Positions 3,715 to 30,047 of a DNA stretch of 64,000 nucleotides are shown piece after piece. The DNA is from Streptacidiphilus sp. PB12-B1b. Lineage in GTDB: Bacteria > Actinomycetota > Actinomycetes > Streptomycetales > Streptomycetaceae. The stretch spans positions 7,192,001 to 7,256,000 of the forward strand of contig NZ_CP048405.1 of assembly GCF_014084125.1 (NCBI RefSeq). The letters run 5' to 3'. Within the stretch, counting starts at the first letter, position 1, and the number at the start of each line of letters is the position of its first letter. The notes beneath the pieces were generated by a model, which worked only from the letters and a program-made list of their open reading frames with translations, ran no database searches and had not been told where the DNA came from. A program made the translations under genes and the position numbers.

Positions 3715-3855
3715 GGAAGCGGTGAAATAAGCAACAGGGTGTAGCCGTTGCTGCACAAAGCGTTATCCTCGTCTGACGCACGCCGGTGCCCATGTGTCCC
3801 ACGCTGGGCGAGCGGGCCCGCACTGCACGTAAACAGTTCTGCCTCTGGGAGTCCC

Positions 3856-4674
3856 GTGTACCCACACGTCCGGAACGACGCGCCTGCACCCTCCCTCGCC
3901 CCCGGCTCGGCCGCAGGCGGGCTGGACCTGCTGCGCGCCATGGTGCGCGACCAGCTGTTCCCGCTCGGCCCGCTGCCGATGACCGCACTCGCCGTGGCCG
4001 GCGGCGTGGACGCGCCATTCGGCCCGCAGCCCCCGCGCACGCCCGTCGTCCAGCGCAGCCGCGCCTCCGCCGCCTCCCCGCGCCCGAGAAACCCGTCCTG
4101 GGACAAGGACGACGTCCAGGAGTCGGCCGACAATCCGATCATGCGCCTGGTCGAGCGGGCCCAGGAGGGCGACAGCGAGTCCTTCGGCCGCCTCTACGAC
4201 CACTACGCGGACACGGTCTACCGGTACATCTACTACCGCGTCGGCAGCAAGGCCACCGCCGAGGACCTCACCAGCGAGACGTTTCTGCGGGCGCTGCGCC
4301 GCATCGGCACCTTCACCTGGCAGGGCCGCGACTTCGGCGCCTGGCTGGTCACCATCGCCCGCAACCTGGTCGCCGACCACTTCAAGTCCAGCCGCTTCCG
4401 GCTGGAGGTGACCACCGGCGAGATGCTCGACTCCAACGAGTGCGAGCGCAGCCCGGAGGACTCCGTGCTGGAGTCGCTCTCCAACGCGGCGCTGCTGGAC
4501 GCCGTCCACCGGCTCAACCCGCAGCAGCAGGAGTGCGTCACGCTGCGCTTCCTGCAGGGCCTGTCGGTCGCGGAGACGGCCAGGATCATGGGCAAGAACG
4601 AGGGCGCCATCAAGACCCTCCAGTACCGGGCCGTGCGCACCCTGGCCCGACTGCTGCCGAGCGACGCCAGGTAG
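3856..4674 (+). CDS. bldN: Developmental ECF sigma factor BldN, with pro-sequence
   Basis: ECF sigma factor required for aerial mycelium formation; directs RNA polymerase to bldM, chaplin and rodlin genes in studied streptomycetes. 272 residues from a GTG start at 3856 (MYPHV...), with GGGAG 4 bases upstream. Residues 1-95 are a poorly conserved extension corresponding to the pro-sequence removed from BldN in S. coelicolor. Sigma region 2 spans about residues 97-170 (RYIYYRVGSKATAEDLTSET, DFGAWLVTIARNLVADHF) and region 4 about 210-265 (LNPQQQECVTLRFLQGLSV, GKNEGAIKTLQYRAVRTL). The sigma core is almost identical to the S. coelicolor protein as I recall it. Followed by rsbN on the same strand after 257 bases. 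Confidence 0.95.
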   Translation: MYPHVRNDAPAPSLAPGSAAGGLDLLRAMVRDQLFPLGPLPMTALAVAGGVDAPFGPQPPRTPVVQRSRASAASPRPRNPSWDKDDVQESADNPIMRLVERAQEGDSESFGRLYDHYADTVYRYIYYRVGSKATAEDLTSETFLRALRRIGTFTWQGRDFGAWLVTIARNLVADHFKSSRFRLEVTTGEMLDSNECERSPEDSVLESLSNAALLDAVHRLNPQQQECVTLRFLQGLSVAETARIMGKNEGAIKTLQYRAVRTLARLLPSDAR

Positions 4675-23445: not shown

Positions 23446-24273
23446 GTGCCAGCCGTAGACGTCACGCTCACCGATCGCAAGGCAGTCGAGAAGGCTGCGA
23501 AGAAGGCCGCAGCGGCGGCCCGCAAGCGCGAGGTCCCGCTGGACTTCGCCCGCGCCTGGGTCGAATTCGCCGACCCGGACGACGCCGAACAGGTCTTCCG
23601 GTGCGACCTGACCTGGCTCACCTCCAGCTGGACCTGCATCTTCGGCCGGGGCTGCCACGGCATCCGCCCCGGCCGGGCCAGCGACGGCTGCTGCACCCTG
23701 GGGGCGCACTGGTCCGACGAGGACGACCAGCAGCGCGTCCTCGGCCACGCCGCCCGGCTCACCCCGGAGACCTGGCAGTACCACCGGCAGGGCAACGGCC
23801 CCAAGGGCATCAGCGAGCCCGACGAGGACGGCGAGCTGCGCACCCGCCGGGTCGACGGCGCCTGCATCTTCCTCAACCGCCCGGGCTTCCCCGGCGGCGA
23901 GGGCTGCTCACTGCACACCCTGGCCCTGGCCGAGGGGCTGGAGCCGCTGGAGACCAAGCCGGACGTCTGCTGGCAGCTGCCGATCCGGCGCACCTACGAC
24001 TGGATCGACCGCCCGGACGACACCCGCTACCTCCAGGTCAGCATCGGCGAGTACGACCGCCGGGGCTGGGGGCCGGGCGGCCACGACCTGCAGTGGTGGT
24101 GCACCGGCAGCCCGGACGCCCACGTCGGCGCGGAGCCGGTGTACGTCAGCTACCGCGCGGAGCTGACCGAGCTGATGGGCGAGGCCGGCTACGCCGTGCT
24201 GGAACAGCTCTGCACCCGCCACCTGGCCACCCTCGGCGCCCCGGTCGCCCCCCACCCGGCCGACCCGGCCTGA
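23446..24273 (+). CDS. Conserved-looking Cys-rich protein, possible metal/Fe-S binder
   Basis: 275 residues from GTG 23446 (GGAG 5 bases upstream). A Lys/Ala helix (10-30) is followed by a Cys-rich region: Cys53, 64, 70, 82, 83 ([29 protein letters not shown]), then Cys140, 154, 175 ([31 protein letters not shown]). The GCCxxGAHW and GCSLH spacing recalls the YkgJ/CxxxxxCC family of putative zinc or iron-sulfur chelating proteins. The C-terminal part has many Trp/Tyr (LQWWCTGSP). Function unknown. It is divergent from heme oxygenase and shares its operator region, which may hint at an iron link. Confidence 0.75.
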
Positions 24274-24287
24274 CCTGCGGGCGGGCG

Positions 24288-25982
24288 TCAGCCCGGGCGG
24301 CGGTGGCGGCCCTGGGGCTGGTCGGTGGCCGGCGGTGTGGCCGAGGCCACCGGGGCGGGCGTGCCGGAGGCCGGGGCGCTGGGCGTGGAGACCGGCTGAC
24401 CGGTCGGCGGCGCGGTCGGGCTCGCAGTCGGCGTGCCGGGCGCTCCGGCGCTGCCGCTGGGCGCGGGCGTCGGCCCGCTCGGGGCGGTGGGGGCGACCGG
24501 CCCGCCGGGAGCGGTCGGGCTGCTGCTCGGCGCCGAGGGCGGCGGCAGGGTCCGGCGTCCGGTGCCCGGGCCGCGCAGGGTCACCACCGCGCCGGACGGC
24601 TGCACTGTCAGCCGGGCGGTCCACGGGTCGACCGGGGTCAGCCCCGGGTCCACGGTGACCAGCACGGTGGCCCGCTCCCCCGGCCGCAGCGTGCCGGAGC
24701 CCCGGCTGAGCCGCAGCCAGGGCGCGCCGCCGGTGATCTGCCAGGCGGTCGGGTTGCTGCCGCTGTCGGCCAGGGTGACGACGGTCCGTCCGCCGACCTC
24801 GGCGGCGGTCACCTCGAGCTGCGCGGCGGGCTGCGCGGACGCCACCGAGGCCCCGGACGCGCCCGCCGGGCCGGGGGCCGTCCCCGCGCCGCCGGGGGCC
24901 GGGCCTGCGGCGGGCGGACCGGCGGGGGCGGCCGCACCGGCGCCGGGACCGCCCGGGCCGTACGCGGTGGGCCCCGGCTCCGGCGGCTCCCACGGCCCCG
25001 GCGACTGCGGGCCGGCCGGTTCGGGCTCGGGCGTCGCCACGCTGACCGAGGAGACCGGGGCCGACTGGACCGGGTGGCGCTGGTGCGTGGACCAGAACGC
25101 GACGACGGGGGCGGCCACCACCGCCGCGATGACCGAGCCGGCCACGGCCCGCTGCCGCAGCAGCACCGCGCGCTGGCTGGGCGCGGCGCGGTGCACCGGG
25201 AAGCCGCGCCGGTCGAAGCGGGGCTCGCGGGCGGTGTCGTCCCGGCGGCCGAGCTGGGCGACGAAGCCCTCCGCGCCCGCGTCCTGCCGCAGCTCGCCGG
25301 GGGCGGCCACCAGCCCCGGCGTCCCGGGCGCGCGCAGCGTTCCCGGCCAGGGGCCCAGTGCGGCGGCGCGCTCCGCCGTGCCCCGGCAGGTGGGGCAGTC
25401 GTCCAGGTGGCGGACCAGCTCGCCGCGCAGCGCCGGGCCGAGCACCGGGCCGCGCTCGCCGCCGAGCCGCCGCAGTTCCGGGCAGCCGTCGGCGTCCAGG
25501 ACGCTCAGCGCCGCCGCCGTCCGCTCCATCTCGCACACGGCCCGGGCGACCAGCGCCCCGGCCTGCTCGTCGCGCATCCCCAGCACCGCCGCCAGCTCCC
25601 CGGTGCCCAGCCCGTGGCGTCCGGTGAGCTCCAGCGCCTCGCGCTGGGCCGGGGTGGAGCCGGCCGTCTCGGGCCAGGCGAGCCTGCCCAGGCCCGGGGC
25701 CTGCGGTCGGCCGCCGCCCGGCAGCGGGTCGGCGTTCTCCATCCGCAGCAGGCAGCAGTACCGGGCCAGCGCGTACAGCCAGGCGCGCTGGAGCGCCGGC
25801 CGGCGCAGCCGCCGCCGGTGCCGCGCCGCCAGCCGCCGCACCTCGCGTACGGCGGCGACCGCCTCCGCCTGGTCGCACAGGACGGAGAGGCAGTAGGTGT
25901 ACAGCGCGTCGGTCAGGTGTTCCCATGCCTCGTCGAGGCCGCGCTGCCGGGGAACGGCTCTGGCCTGGGTCCGGGTGGTCAC
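24288..25982 (-). CDS. Membrane-spanning ECF-sigma-like/zinc-finger/BACON fusion protein
   Basis: 564 residues. Residues 15-160 look like a degraded ECF sigma factor (EAWEHLTDALYTYCLSVLCD, ALQRAWLYALARYC, TGELAAVLGMRDEQAGALVA as region 4). Residues 188-205 hold HLDDCPTC, i.e. His192-x3-Cys196-x2-Cys199, the zinc anti-sigma signature. One membrane helix is at about 279-297. After a Pro/Ala/Gly linker, residues 388-472 form a BACON beta-sandwich (TAWQITGGAPWLRLSRGSG, RATVLVTVDPG), then a Pro/Ser/Thr tail. The GTG start directly follows GGGGAG. Resembles sigma factors with long C-terminal sensory extensions (ECF52-like). DNA-binding competence is uncertain. Confidence 0.78.
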   Translation of the reverse strand: MTTRTQARAVPRQRGLDEAWEHLTDALYTYCLSVLCDQAEAVAAVREVRRLAARHRRRLRRPALQRAWLYALARYCCLLRMENADPLPGGGRPQAPGLGRLAWPETAGSTPAQREALELTGRHGLGTGELAAVLGMRDEQAGALVARAVCEMERTAAALSVLDADGCPELRRLGGERGPVLGPALRGELVRHLDDCPTCRGTAERAAALGPWPGTLRAPGTPGLVAAPGELRQDAGAEGFVAQLGRRDDTAREPRFDRRGFPVHRAAPSQRAVLLRQRAVAGSVIAAVVAAPVVAFWSTHQRHPVQSAPVSSVSVATPEPEPAGPQSPGPWEPPEPGPTAYGPGGPGAGAAAPAGPPAAGPAPGGAGTAPGPAGASGASVASAQPAAQLEVTAAEVGGRTVVTLADSGSNPTAWQITGGAPWLRLSRGSGTLRPGERATVLVTVDPGLTPVDPWTARLTVQPSGAVVTLRGPGTGRRTLPPPSAPSSSPTAPGGPVAPTAPSGPTPAPSGSAGAPGTPTASPTAPPTGQPVSTPSAPASGTPAPVASATPPATDQPQGRHRRPG

Positions 25983-26091
25983 CTCCCCGACGTTAGGGCC
26001 CGGCCCGCGCCGCCCACCGGAGCTTGCGGGCGGCGTACCCCTTTCGGGTGAGTGGGCGGCGCTGTCAGTGCCGGGTTGTAGCGTTCACGGC

Positions 26092-27678
26092 ATGGCAGCA
26101 CGATCGACGTCTCCCAAGGTCCGCTCCTCGTACCGGTGTACGGAGTGCGGCTCCACCCCGCCCAAGTGGACCGGCCGCTGCACCGAGTGCAACGCCTGGG
26201 GCACCATCGAGGAGGTCGGCGCGGTCCCGGTGCGGACCACCGCCGCCGGCCCGGTGAGCAGCGCCGCCCTGCCCATCGGCCAGGTGGACGCCCGGGTGGC
26301 CGCCTCCCGGCCGACCAACATCGACGAGCTGGACCGGGTGCTGGGCGGCGGCCTGGTGCCGGGCGCGGTCGCGCTGCTGGCCGGGGAGCCCGGTGTGGGC
26401 AAGTCGACGCTGCTGCTGGACGTGGCGGCCAAGGCCGCCAGCGAGACCCACCGCACCCTGTACGTCACCGGCGAGGAGTCGGCGAGCCAGGTCCGGCTAC
26501 GGGCGGACCGGATCAACGCCCTGTCCCCGCACCTCTACCTGGCGGCGGAGACCGACCTGGGGGCGGTGCTGGGCCACATCGAGCAGGTCAACCCGTCGCT
26601 GCTGATCCTGGACTCGGTGCAGACCATCGCCTCCGGCCAGCTGGACAGCGCGCCCGGCGGCCCGGCGCAGATCCGGGAGGTGACGGCGGCGCTGATCCGG
26701 GCGTCCAAGACCCGGGCCATGTCCACGCTGCTGGTGGGCCATGTCACCAAGGACGGCTCGATCGCCGGGCCGCGGCTGCTGGAGCACCTGGTGGACGTGG
26801 TGCTGCACTTCGAGGGCGACCGGCACGCCCGGCTGCGGATCATCCGGGGCATCAAGAACCGCTACGGCGCGACCGACGAGGTGGGCTGTTTCGAGCTGAG
26901 CGACTCCGGCATCGTCGGCCTGCCCGACCCGTCCGGGCTGTTCCTGACGAAACGGGAGAAACCGGTCCCGGGGACCTGCCTGACCGTCACCCTGGAGGGG
27001 CGCCGCCCGCTGGTCGCCGAGGTACAGGCGCTGATGGTGGATTCGCAGATCCCCTCGCCCCGGCGGACCACCTCCGGCCTGGAGTCGCCGCGGATCGCCA
27101 TGATCCTGGCCGTGGTCGAGCGGCACGCCGGGGTGCGGCTGGGCAAGCTCGACATCTACACGGCGACCGTCGGCGGGGTGAAGCTCACCGAGCCCTCGGT
27201 GGACCTGGCGATCGCGCTGTCGGTGGCCAGTTCAGCGGCCGACACGCCGCTGCCGCCGAACCTGGTGGCGATCGGCGAGGTGGGCCTGGCGGGCGAGGTG
27301 CGCCGGGTCACCGGGGTGGAGCGCAGGCTCGCCGAGGCGGCGCGGCTGGGCTTCACCCACGCCCTGGTCCCGCCGGATCCGGGGAAGGTCCCCCGGGGCA
27401 TGCGGGTGACCGAGGTCTCCACCATCGCCGAGGCCATGGCGGCGATCCCCGGCAGGCGCGGCTCCGGCCGCCGCTCGGGCGGGGGCGCGGGCGCGGGTTC
27501 CGGCGCGGGCGCGGGCCGGACGTCGGGCTCCGGAAACGGCGCCGGGCCCGGCTCCCGCCCCGGTTCTGCCTCCGGCTCCGGCGCGGGCCGGGGCGGCAGC
27601 GGCCTGCCCGCGTTCCTGGACGTCCCGGACGATCCGGCCGAGCTGATGGACGGCTGGGAGGAGGTCGATCCCGGCTAG
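26092..27678 (+). CDS. radA: DNA repair protein RadA
   Basis: RecA-related ATPase that promotes branch migration in recombination. 528 residues. N-terminal zinc finger CTECGSTPPKWTGRCTEC (Cys16, 19, 30, 33), Walker A GEPGVGKST (98-106), Walker B LLILDSV, the RadA-specific KNRYG (255-259), and a Lon-like C-terminal domain (LDIYTATVGGVKLTEPSVDL). The tail (about 455-505) is an unusual Gly/Ser/Ala/Arg-rich insertion before a conserved acidic end. ATG 26092 has no strong binding site. disA follows after 128 bases on the same strand, a widespread pairing. Confidence 0.96.
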   Translation: MAARSTSPKVRSSYRCTECGSTPPKWTGRCTECNAWGTIEEVGAVPVRTTAAGPVSSAALPIGQVDARVAASRPTNIDELDRVLGGGLVPGAVALLAGEPGVGKSTLLLDVAAKAASETHRTLYVTGEESASQVRLRADRINALSPHLYLAAETDLGAVLGHIEQVNPSLLILDSVQTIASGQLDSAPGGPAQIREVTAALIRASKTRAMSTLLVGHVTKDGSIAGPRLLEHLVDVVLHFEGDRHARLRIIRGIKNRYGATDEVGCFELSDSGIVGLPDPSGLFLTKREKPVPGTCLTVTLEGRRPLVAEVQALMVDSQIPSPRRTTSGLESPRIAMILAVVERHAGVRLGKLDIYTATVGGVKLTEPSVDLAIALSVASSAADTPLPPNLVAIGEVGLAGEVRRVTGVERRLAEAARLGFTHALVPPDPGKVPRGMRVTEVSTIAEAMAAIPGRRGSGRRSGGGAGAGSGAGAGRTSGSGNGAGPGSRPGSASGSGAGRGGSGLPAFLDVPDDPAELMDGWEEVDPG

Positions 27679-27806: not shown

Positions 27807-28913
27807 GTGGCAGCCAACGACCGGGCGGATCGCTCCTCCCGCGAGGAGGCCCTGATGCGGGCCTCGCTCAGCGCCGTAGCCCCTGGCACGCCCCTGCGCG
27901 ACGGCCTGGAGCGGGTGCTGCGCGGCCGCACCGGCGGGCTGATCGTGCTCGGCTTCGACAAGCAGGTGGAGGCGCTGAGCACCGGCGGCTTCGTGCTGGA
28001 CGTCGAGTTCTCGGCGACCCGGCTGCGCGAGCTGTGCAAGCTGGACGGCGCGGTCGTCCTCGACAAGGACATCACCCGGATCGTCCGGGCCGGGGTCCAG
28101 CTCGTCCCGGACGCCACCATCCCCACCGAGGAGACCGGCACCCGGCACCGCACCGCCGAGCGCGTCAACAAGCAGACCGGCTACCCGGTGGTCTCGGTCA
28201 GCCAGTCGATGCGGCTGATCGCGCTGTACGTCAACGGCGTGCGCCGGGTCATCGAGGACTCCGCGGCGATCCTCTCCCGCGCCAACCAGGCCCTGGCCAC
28301 GCTGGAGCGCTACAAGCTGCGCCTGGACGAAGTGGCCGGCACCCTCTCCGCCCTGGAGATCGAGGACCTGGTGACGGTCCGTGATGTCTCCGCCGTCGCC
28401 CAGCGGCTGGAGCTGGTCCGCCGCATCGCCGGGGAGATCGCGGGCTACGTGGTGGAGTTGGGCACCGACGGCCGGCTGCTGTCGCTCCAGCTGGAGGAGC
28501 TGATCGCCGGGGTCGAGCCGGACCGCGAACTGGTCGCCCGGGACTACTTCCCGGACCGCGCCGCCAAGCGGGGCCGCACCGTCAACGACGTCCTCGCCGA
28601 CTTGGACGCGCTCTCCCACCCCGAGCTGCTGGAGCTGCAGACGGTCGCCAAGGCGCTGGGCTACCCGGGCACCCCGGAGGCCCTGGACACCGCCGTCAGC
28701 CCGCGCGGCTACCGGCTGCTGGCCAAGGTCCCGCGGCTGCCCAACACCGTCATCGAGCGGCTGATCGAGCACTTCGGCGGGCTGCAGAAGCTGCTCGCCG
28801 CCAGCCTCGACGACCTCCAGGCCGTCGAGGGCGTCGGCGAGACCCGTGCCCGCTCGGTCCGCGAGGGGCTGTCCCGGCTGGCCGAGTCGTCCATCCTGGA
28901 ACGCTACGTCTGA
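27807..28913 (+). CDS. disA: DNA integrity scanning protein DisA, diadenylate cyclase
   Basis: Makes cyclic di-AMP from two ATP and scans DNA for branched structures. 368 residues; GTG 27807 with CGGAGGAG 7 bases upstream. The DAC domain (about 20-145) has both catalytic motifs: LDGAVVLD (DGA at 80-82) and TRHRTAERV (RHRTAE at 113-118). A helical spine follows, and a C-terminal helix-hairpin-helix DNA-binding domain ([20 protein letters not shown]). All catalytic residues present. In streptomycetes DisA is the main c-di-AMP source. Confidence 0.97.
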
Positions 28914-28946: not shown

Positions 28947-29888
28947 TCAGCTGCCGAACGGCGCGAGCCGGAACTGGTACGACGGCTGGGCGGTGACGCC
29001 CTTCAGGCTGACCTGGACGACGTAGGTGCCGGGCCCGGCCGCCGCGCCGCCGGTGCCGGGGGTGCAGCCCCGGGCCGAGGTCATCCGGCTCCACTGGAAG
29101 GTGGCGGTGATCGGGGTGCCCGAGCCGGGGACGGCGTACCACTGCGAGGCGGTGTCCGCCGGGCAGTCGCCGGAGGACCAGACGTGGCTGTTGCCGCTGG
29201 TGCTGACGACCACCACGGCCGAGGCGGCGCCGAGGTCGGTCCGGCAGGCGCCGCCGCTGGTGTTGGTGATGGCCAGCTGGAAGGCCGGCAGTTGCGCGGC
29301 CGTGTACGTGGGCTCGGTACTGGTCAGCGAGAGCTCCAGGTCGGAGGCCAGACACACCGGGAGGGCCATGGTGGCCGGGCTGCCGGCGACGACCGGGGTG
29401 CCCCCGGCGCCGGTGCCCGCGCCGGCGCCGGTGCCCGCGCCGCCGCTGGAGCCGCTGCTGCCGCTCGAACCGCCCGAGCCGGCGGCCCCGCTGCCCGGGC
29501 CGCCCTCGGTGACCGTGACCGGCTGCCCGCCGCCCGGCGCCCCGGTGCCCGGCGTGGAGCCGGACCCGCCGGACCCGTGCCCGGATCCGCCGCTGCCGCC
29601 CGCGCCCTTGCCCGTACCGCTGCTCGCCCCGCCGCTCGGCGCGCCGTCGCTGGAGCCGCCGTTGCCCGAGCCGGACGGCGCGGTGGAGCCGGTCGGCCCG
29701 GGGGTGATCGACTTCGCGGGCTGGGTGCCCCTGCCCCCCGTCACGCTCCTGGTGCCGCCGCCTCCCCCGCCGAAGAGGAGCCACCCGACCAGGGCGAGCA
29801 CCGCGACGAGGACGACCAGCACGACAACGCGGCGCCGCCAGTAGATGGACGAGGGCAGAGGCCCGACAGGATTGCGCAGAGAAGGCAC
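28947..29888 (-). CDS. Membrane-anchored Gly/Ser-rich extracytoplasmic protein
   Basis: About 313 residues. PLPSSIYWRRR precedes a single hydrophobic helix (VVVLVVLVAVLALVGWLLF), then a long Gly/Ser/Thr/Pro linker (about 45-170) and a C-terminal globular part (about 175-313) with four Cys likely in disulfides (PVCLASDLELS, GGACRTDLG, SGDCPADT, ARGCTPGTG), ending YVVQVSLKGVTAQPSYQFRL, an Ig-like beta-fold pattern. I chose GTG 29888 (AAGG 8 bases upstream) over TTG 29894. Found next to disA/mutY in streptomycetes; function unknown. Confidence 0.72.
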   Translation of the reverse strand: MPSLRNPVGPLPSSIYWRRRVVVLVVLVAVLALVGWLLFGGGGGGTRSVTGGRGTQPAKSITPGPTGSTAPSGSGNGGSSDGAPSGGASSGTGKGAGGSGGSGHGSGGSGSTPGTGAPGGGQPVTVTEGGPGSGAAGSGGSSGSSGSSGGAGTGAGAGTGAGGTPVVAGSPATMALPVCLASDLELSLTSTEPTYTAAQLPAFQLAITNTSGGACRTDLGAASAVVVVSTSGNSHVWSSGDCPADTASQWYAVPGSGTPITATFQWSRMTSARGCTPGTGGAAAGPGTYVVQVSLKGVTAQPSYQFRLAPFGS

Positions 29889-30047
29889 GAGCAAACCTTA
29901 CGAGAGATCAACCCCCGGTCAGAGCAACACCGCCGTACCCGTGGTCCCTTCTTTCACATCATCGGCCTGATCGGCCATCCGAATGGTTTCCTGCGACCAA
30001 TCCGGTTACCCGGTTGTGACCGGAGGTGTGCGACCATCGACACCGTC

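Follow-up and report, generated by a model that had tools for sequence, protein, structure and literature searches.

A radA-linked gene family of Streptomycetaceae encoding a diverged sigma-like domain fused to a zinc anti-sigma domain, a membrane helix and a BACON-like domain

Layout of the gene and its neighbourhood

The window analysed here is a stretch of 64,000 nucleotides from the 7.67 Mb genome of Streptacidiphilus sp. PB12-B1b. On its minus strand an intact open reading frame of 564 codons runs from a GTG start at 25982 to a stop at 24288 (24288..25982). The initial annotation had read its product as a degenerate sigma factor followed by an HxxxCxxC motif, a membrane helix, a linker and a BACON domain; every one of these parts was located in the ORF in that order, and the existence of the fused protein is confirmed. 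The protein begins with sigma region 2-like helices (residues 20-83; 25734..25925) in which the core-binding and promoter-melting positions have diverged, as judged from alignment, family profile and structural model, and continues with region 4-like helices (residues 108-160; 25503..25661) recognized by the Pfam model Sigma70_r4_2 in many members, by the family profile and by the structural model. The zinc anti-sigma domain (residues 165-205; 25368..25490) with ligands C167, H192, C196 and C199 was assigned by alignment and by a weak match of the family profile to RsiW (E 0.059). It is followed by a single membrane helix with arginines on its N side (residues 278-299; 25086..25151), supported by hydrophobicity (core 279-297, Kyte-Doolittle 2.18) and by its conservation in the family. 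A Pro/Ala/Gly-rich linker (24831..25073), probably extracytoplasmic, leads to a BACON-like Ig-type beta sandwich (residues 388-474; 24561..24821) identified by Pfam, family profile and predicted fold. Linker and tail were delimited by composition; the Pro/Ala/Ser/Thr-rich C-terminal tail (residues 475-564; 24291..24560) is an addition to the first description. A chance ORF was considered and ruled out by the homologues, the conserved synteny and the conserved zinc ligands.

The gene is flanked on one side by a 275-aa gene (23446-24273, plus strand), whose product had no Pfam or NCBIfam match at E<=0.001, and on the other by the divergent radA (26092-27678, plus strand; TIGR00416, 506 bits), after which comes disA (27846-28913). 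Beside disA, the minus strand (28947-29894) encodes a Ser/Gly-rich protein of 315 aa that is hydrophobic over a stretch close to its N-terminus and for which neither Pfam nor NCBIfam gave a match at E<=0.001. Judged only by gene order, it may correspond to SCO3353, which the S. coelicolor glycoproteome includes as a hypothetical protein (PMC6593405; this and the other PMC papers are cited from excerpts). SCO3351 is RadA in S. coelicolor (PMC3897704), so by gene order the orthologue of the family gene is expected at SCO3350 or SCO3349; neither is named in the main texts of the literature searched for SCO3349-SCO3353. Nothing that we judged relevant was found in excerpts of the literature joining BACON, sigma and Streptomyces. 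About 20 kb from the fusion gene lies a BldN-family ECF sigma gene (3748-4674, plus strand; TIGR02952, 252 bits), and the reading frame after it may encode its anti-sigma partner.

Distribution of the family

With the 211-aa sigma-zinc part as query, a homologue was found in 40 out of 41 sampled Streptomycetaceae genomes, representing 17/17 genera. A closer draw of genomes gave a homologue in 9/9, including three from other families of the same order. In a wider draw of 98 genomes from the class, the family profile (E<=1e-15) matched at least 17, a lower bound since no more than 23 candidates per genome were scored. A tblastn search of plasmids matched one Nonomuraea record; the matches among relatives were five Streptacidiphilus records plus one MAG (a short match).

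The divergent radA adjoins the family gene in 40/40 Streptomycetaceae loci, and a BACON match is present at 37 of them. The 275-aa gene lies beside the family gene in 29/40; its misses include contig ends and also two long stretches (L055 and L056). DisA was seen at 17/40 loci, most stretches being too short to reach disA. Outside the Streptomycetaceae a RadA neighbour was found in one of 12 stretches and a BACON match in four of 13 homologous proteins, so within this sample both the radA linkage and the BACON domain are mainly tied to the order. Several genera have a second copy in tandem, placed between radA and the family gene (L056, L057, L059, L060, L061, L063, L064 and L065).

Sixty proteins were collected, loci repeating a genome (13) being skipped. 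The 57-row alignment omits three truncated or gapped proteins (L006, L004 and the contig-end piece of L025), and counts out of 46 are made without nine tandem second copies, L008 and L062. Profile A1 (54 rows) omits the second copies of L061 and L056 and L062; profile A2 (53 rows) omits these and L008. In alignment A4 the second copy of L061 was omitted and the window protein replaces L001.

Zinc anti-sigma domain

Zinc anti-sigma (ZAS) domains have the spacing C-x(about 25)-H-x3-C-x2-C, as in RsrA. In the window protein HxxxCxxC begins at residue 192 and C167, 25 residues before H192, is the fourth ligand; the C-H-C-C set is complete and its spacing is close to the RsrA type. C167, H192 and C199 are present in 57/57 aligned members and C196 in 55/57, the two exceptions being second copies in two genomes (G007 and G008), both with D. 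The fused zinc brake suggested by the initial annotation is thus borne out, with a motif that is conserved across the family.

Recognition of the sigma regions

Searches with single sequences gave little. For the window protein alone, the PhyR sigma-like domain was matched in Pfam (E 0.02) and in the PDB (E 0.029), Sigma70_r2 was not found in Pfam, and the best NCBIfam match was the sigma-70 model PRK08241 (E 0.0018, residues 5-85), far under its cut-off. Among 54 family members searched against Pfam (E<=0.01), 29 matched Sigma70_r4_2, 10 the PhyR sigma-like domain, seven zf-HC2 and four Sigma70_r2. The NCBI ECF model TIGR02937 (cut-off 42.9 bits) was not among the matches listed for the window protein; of five family members tested, one had it listed, with 18.2 bits, versus 48.8 bits for an ECF53-like protein and 60.2 bits for the ECF52-like protein of the same genome, both above the cut-off. 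A PF04542 search of the same genome (E<=0.001) listed 37 places, the family gene not among them. The family profile A2, on the other hand, matched SigL in the PDB at 2.6e-9 (profile positions 5-165), Bartonella RpoE at 2.6e-8 and AlgU at 2.2e-6, and the SigL and RpoE matches span both sigma-2 and sigma-4. The sigma regions presumed earlier are therefore detectable by profile search. Taken with the predicted fold, the profile indicates a real sigma homology whose region 2 is mostly missed by single-sequence models.

The PhyR matches raise the possibility that the domain recruits no polymerase and instead, whether set free or still tethered, binds another sigma's regulator, as a PhyR-like decoy, or a zinc anti-sigma, making the protein a transmembrane sigma mimic. 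PhyR is the sole sigma-type match of the window protein alone in Pfam and the PDB, and its presence among the matches of 10/54 members and among the good structural matches points the same way. However, PhyR is itself a sigma mimic, so likeness to it is common to ordinary sigma factors; it is outranked by SigL and RpoE in the profile search and by RpoE, SigW and CnrH in structural comparison; the best NCBIfam match is an ordinary sigma-70 subfamily; and no receiver domain was found in the window protein with Pfam. We consider such a mimic a somewhat doubtful explanation.

Predicted structure of the sigma part

The AlphaFold model of the sigma part (pLDDT 84.1, pTM 0.83) gave no Foldseek match with E < 0.001 (best 5.1e-3). 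Structural realignment fitted it best to sigma factors bound by their anti-sigma: RpoE/NepR (Z 12.8, 3.7 Å over 151 residues), SigW/RsiW (Z 11.8) and CnrH/CnrY (Z 11.6, 3.5 Å over 143 residues). The PhyR entries mostly reached Z of about 9-11, with one at 4.4. Against polymerase-bound SigH both regions align only at about 27 Å. The predicted sigma-2/sigma-4 arrangement is thus the compact form known from anti-sigma complexes. Helical models often get middling Z scores, and the claim of sigma homology is therefore carried by the profile result.

Divergence of the sigma interface

Region 2 was compared by alignment between the family and 20 sigma factors encoded in the same genome, namely those judged ECF-type out of 30 loci fetched from the 37 places listed. 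The core-polymerase contacts of sigma70 region 2.2 were reportedly worked out by Sharp et al. in 1999; we take D403, Q406 and E407 (sigma70 numbering) to be the contact positions and N80 of SigE (Campagne et al.) to be the promoter-melting position. Among the 46 family members the D403-equivalent is D once and E five times, versus D in 18 of the 20 sigma factors, and the Q406-equivalent is Q in 0/46 versus 15/20. An acidic residue (E/D) stands at the E407-equivalent in 26/46 versus 19/20, and N at the N80-equivalent in 1/46 versus 13/20. The word "degenerate" in the initial annotation was well chosen. The Nonomuraea homologue, like some of the second copies, looks nearer to the usual region 2 motif. 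For region 4, the family profile aligned too weakly with the ECF factors of the same genome for residue counts.

The loss of these contacts goes together with conservation of the regions that carried them. Mean pairwise identity among the 46 members is 0.585 in region 2, 0.641 in region 4 and 0.613 in the membrane helix, compared to 0.527 in the zinc domain and 0.23-0.38 in the linkers (0.23 in the linker between regions 2 and 4). Regions 2 and 4 being more alike than the zinc domain or the linkers is as expected under purifying selection, judging from the alignment. With contacts lost and regions conserved, the sigma domain looks not like a decaying remnant but like one that is repurposed or uses another interface. 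The loss of the D403-, Q406- and N80-equivalents in otherwise conserved sigma regions is what a sigma mimic without polymerase recruitment would lead one to expect; the partly kept acidic residue at the E407-equivalent argues against it.

BACON-like domain

Against the Pfam BACON model the window protein scored 18.9 bits, under the cut-off of 25, and BACON_2 was over its cut-off in 4/4 Streptacidiphilus homologues and 8/9 further homologues. A profile built from the BACON part matched 49 of the 60 members. Among the 11 misses, L004, L032, one L025 piece and the first copies of L060 and L063 are gapped or contig-end proteins; at L055 the BACON match sits in another ORF; and L008, L062 and the second copies of L025, L064 and L065 are apparently without the domain. 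The predicted fold of this part is a beta sandwich (pLDDT 95.4). Its closest solved fold (Foldseek 3.5e-5) is one module within multi-domain GH115 enzymes, and the other profile matches are mainly HYDIN-type ciliary proteins and major sperm proteins. Within the sandwich, W27, G43, G48, P63, P75 and G84 are invariant among 48 sequences, and W35 and W67 are nearly so. Actinomycetota contribute 16% of BACON_2 proteins (PMC11216935).

The BACON domain may simply be part of a wall anchor or spacer. The signal would then be membrane or wall stress, or redox state or zinc acting on the zinc domain; zinc anti-sigma factors can act as redox switches. The Pro-rich stretches flanking the BACON domain look like a wall-spanning stalk, the closest solved fold is a single module of larger enzymes, and PMC11216935 ascribes a spacer role to the BACON domain of BoGH5A. 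The invariant W, G and P positions weigh on the other side, and may reflect either the fold or a ligand. We find a spacer role quite plausible, if somewhat short of an even chance, and it is compatible with the other readings. Given the spacer description of the BoGH5A domain, glycan sensing by the BACON part is a mere possibility.

Relation to ECF52, ECF53, IutY and PhyR

The design of the protein is not new. ECF52 of S. coelicolor (SCO4117) has a sigma part, zinc domain, helix, Pro-rich stretch and outside domain in the same order, and according to a proposal cited for it the sigma is set free when the sugar module brings about proteolysis or a shift in conformation (PMC5826349). Proteolytic release has been extended to ECF48, ECF52 and ECF53 (PMC8999054), and glycosyl-hydrolase domains are predicted in some ECF52/53 proteins (PMC10766802). 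The earlier idea of a tethered sigma that needs no separate anti-sigma agrees with the one-chain design, but as an idea it had already been published for ECF52 (PMC5826349) and for ECF48/52/53 (PMC8999054).

The shared part order would also suit a plain ECF52 orthologue of SCO4117. The genome, however, has an NPCBM-bearing ECF52-like protein (L109) at a separate locus, and the window protein had no NPCBM match in Pfam. The family HMM scored L109 at 11.3 bits versus 38-44 bits for five ECF53-like proteins, 42.1 for L098 and 32.9 for L084 (an ordinary sigma), both from the same genome, and 30.8 for L100; in this small database searched with no filters the bits count and the E-values do not. The loci differ too, with SCO4117 next to atrA (PMC5826349) and the family gene next to radA. 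The orthologue reading was rejected on the separate L109 and its 11.3 bits, and we regard it as extremely improbable; "ECF52-like", as the protein was first called, is inexact. Among the matches listed, the other one from the same genome at E<=1e-15 was the L098 protein at 4906254 (E 2e-16).

Instead, the closest paralogues by profile are ECF53-like proteins (L104-L108), a label given here from architecture and PMC10766802, not from the ECF database. Hhalign of the family with these proteins gave a probability of 98.2 (E 4.1e-14, 198 columns) through sigma-2, sigma-4 and the zinc domain, which are collinear on one chain in both. The ECF53-type proteins keep DDVVQET in region 2, whereas the family motif is degenerate. 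L104 ends in Glyco_hydro_cc (Pfam), and L105-L108, all in related genomes, were judged alike from their similar C-termini; the family ends in BACON. The glycosyl-hydrolase core is absent from the window protein, though this core may not define the whole ECF53 group. ECF52 shares the design and has a published release proposal, but has a different carbohydrate module (smart00776 in PMC5826349; NPCBM in L109) and recognisable sigma regions, and its sequence is distant from the family, with L109 standing in for SCO4117. IutY of Pseudomonas putida (ECF243) is a sigma fused to a membrane anti-sigma with proteolytic release as proposed here (PMC8999054); it belongs to an iron cell-surface signalling system and is likened to the family by description only. 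The PhyR sigma-like domain, a sigma-fold mimic, is part of a soluble response regulator with neither zinc domain nor membrane helix, whereas the family has both.

Proposed mechanism

We lean slightly toward a sensor of the ECF52/ECF53 type that combines sigma and anti-sigma in a single transmembrane chain and releases a diverged sigma, over a sigma mimic without polymerase recruitment, and give the sensor a probability just under one half. In the cytoplasm, the zinc domain would keep the compact sigma-2/sigma-4 pair inhibited. One helix would span the membrane, and the Pro-rich stalk would hold the BACON-type sandwich out into the wall or at the cell surface; there it might sense a ligand, wall contact or tension. 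A cut in or near the membrane would free the sigma-like domain, which would then act on transcription with RNA polymerase through a strongly diverged interface.

The conserved zinc ligands, the profile homology to sigma factors and ECF53-like proteins, the compact model and the conserved regions 2 and 4 argue for this sensor, as do the E407-equivalent kept in 26/46 members and the genetics of SCO4117, where deletion gives phenotypes and an allele with the sigma part alone has a milder effect (PMC5826349). The loss of the D403-, Q406- and N80-equivalents, the Pfam region 2 matches in just 4/54 members, the TIGR02937 misses and an upstream region with no sign of self-activation (below) speak against it, and so do the lack of a Foldseek match below 0.001 and the ease with which helical models reach middling Z scores.

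A more speculative and, to us, unlikely proposal is that the family is a Streptomycetaceae-wide transmembrane pseudo-sigma, in which selection has kept the sigma fold without its polymerase and melting contacts. Its release from the membrane would titrate or switch another sigma/anti-sigma pair; its expression might be linked to development, and its gene lies beside the radA-disA genes for damage and c-di-AMP.

The fusion design is known; what is new is that such a fusion, encoded at a conserved radA locus, has a BACON domain, that its kinship is closer to ECF53-like proteins and that its polymerase contacts are lost. The gene is widespread in Streptomycetaceae, which are antibiotic producers, and is mostly overlooked by the sigma models tried. 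The fusion protein offers a testable case of whether a sigma fold may persist as a membrane signalling module once it no longer binds polymerase.

Upstream regions of the family gene and radA

A CTA(C/A)CGTC box, recurrent in the family, lies six bases before the GTG (25989..25996, minus strand) and is likely a -10 region, which would give a near-leaderless transcript. A second recurrent box, TCACCCGAAAGGG, is found 43-44 bases from it (26039..26051, minus strand) and is likely an activator site. Within up to 420 bases upstream, CACYC(G/A)(A/T)AAG occurred in 27/46 members, CTA(C/A)CGTC in 28/46 and both at 43-44 bases in 19/46, these genomes being related and not independent; mononucleotide shuffles gave 0.07, 0.29 and 0.00 per 46, respectively. 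By eye, no conserved -35-like block, a sign of self-activation, was seen 16-18 bases upstream of the promoter box.

In several Streptomyces-type loci the CACYC(G/A)(A/T)AAG box is near the family gene and distant from radA. It is similar to the group I site of BldM, TCACcCgnncGgGTGA (PMC4125116), with one half-site exact and the other poor in the window, and our guess from this likeness is that a developmental activator may act on the family gene promoter. The TCACYCGAAAGGGG box occurred at seven places in the same genome (<=1 mismatch; three exact) versus two for the reversed control, and no coherent gene set was evident by eye among the seven. At L113, an exact TCACTCGAAAGGGG box lies upstream of a frame that by eye resembles a ribosome hibernation factor. 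Directly upstream of radA, TGTCAGTG-N8-TAGCGT is found at 26063-26084 (plus strand), with one match in the window and 0 in 100 shuffles; we take it to fit the RecA-NDp/PafBC damage promoter consensus in full.
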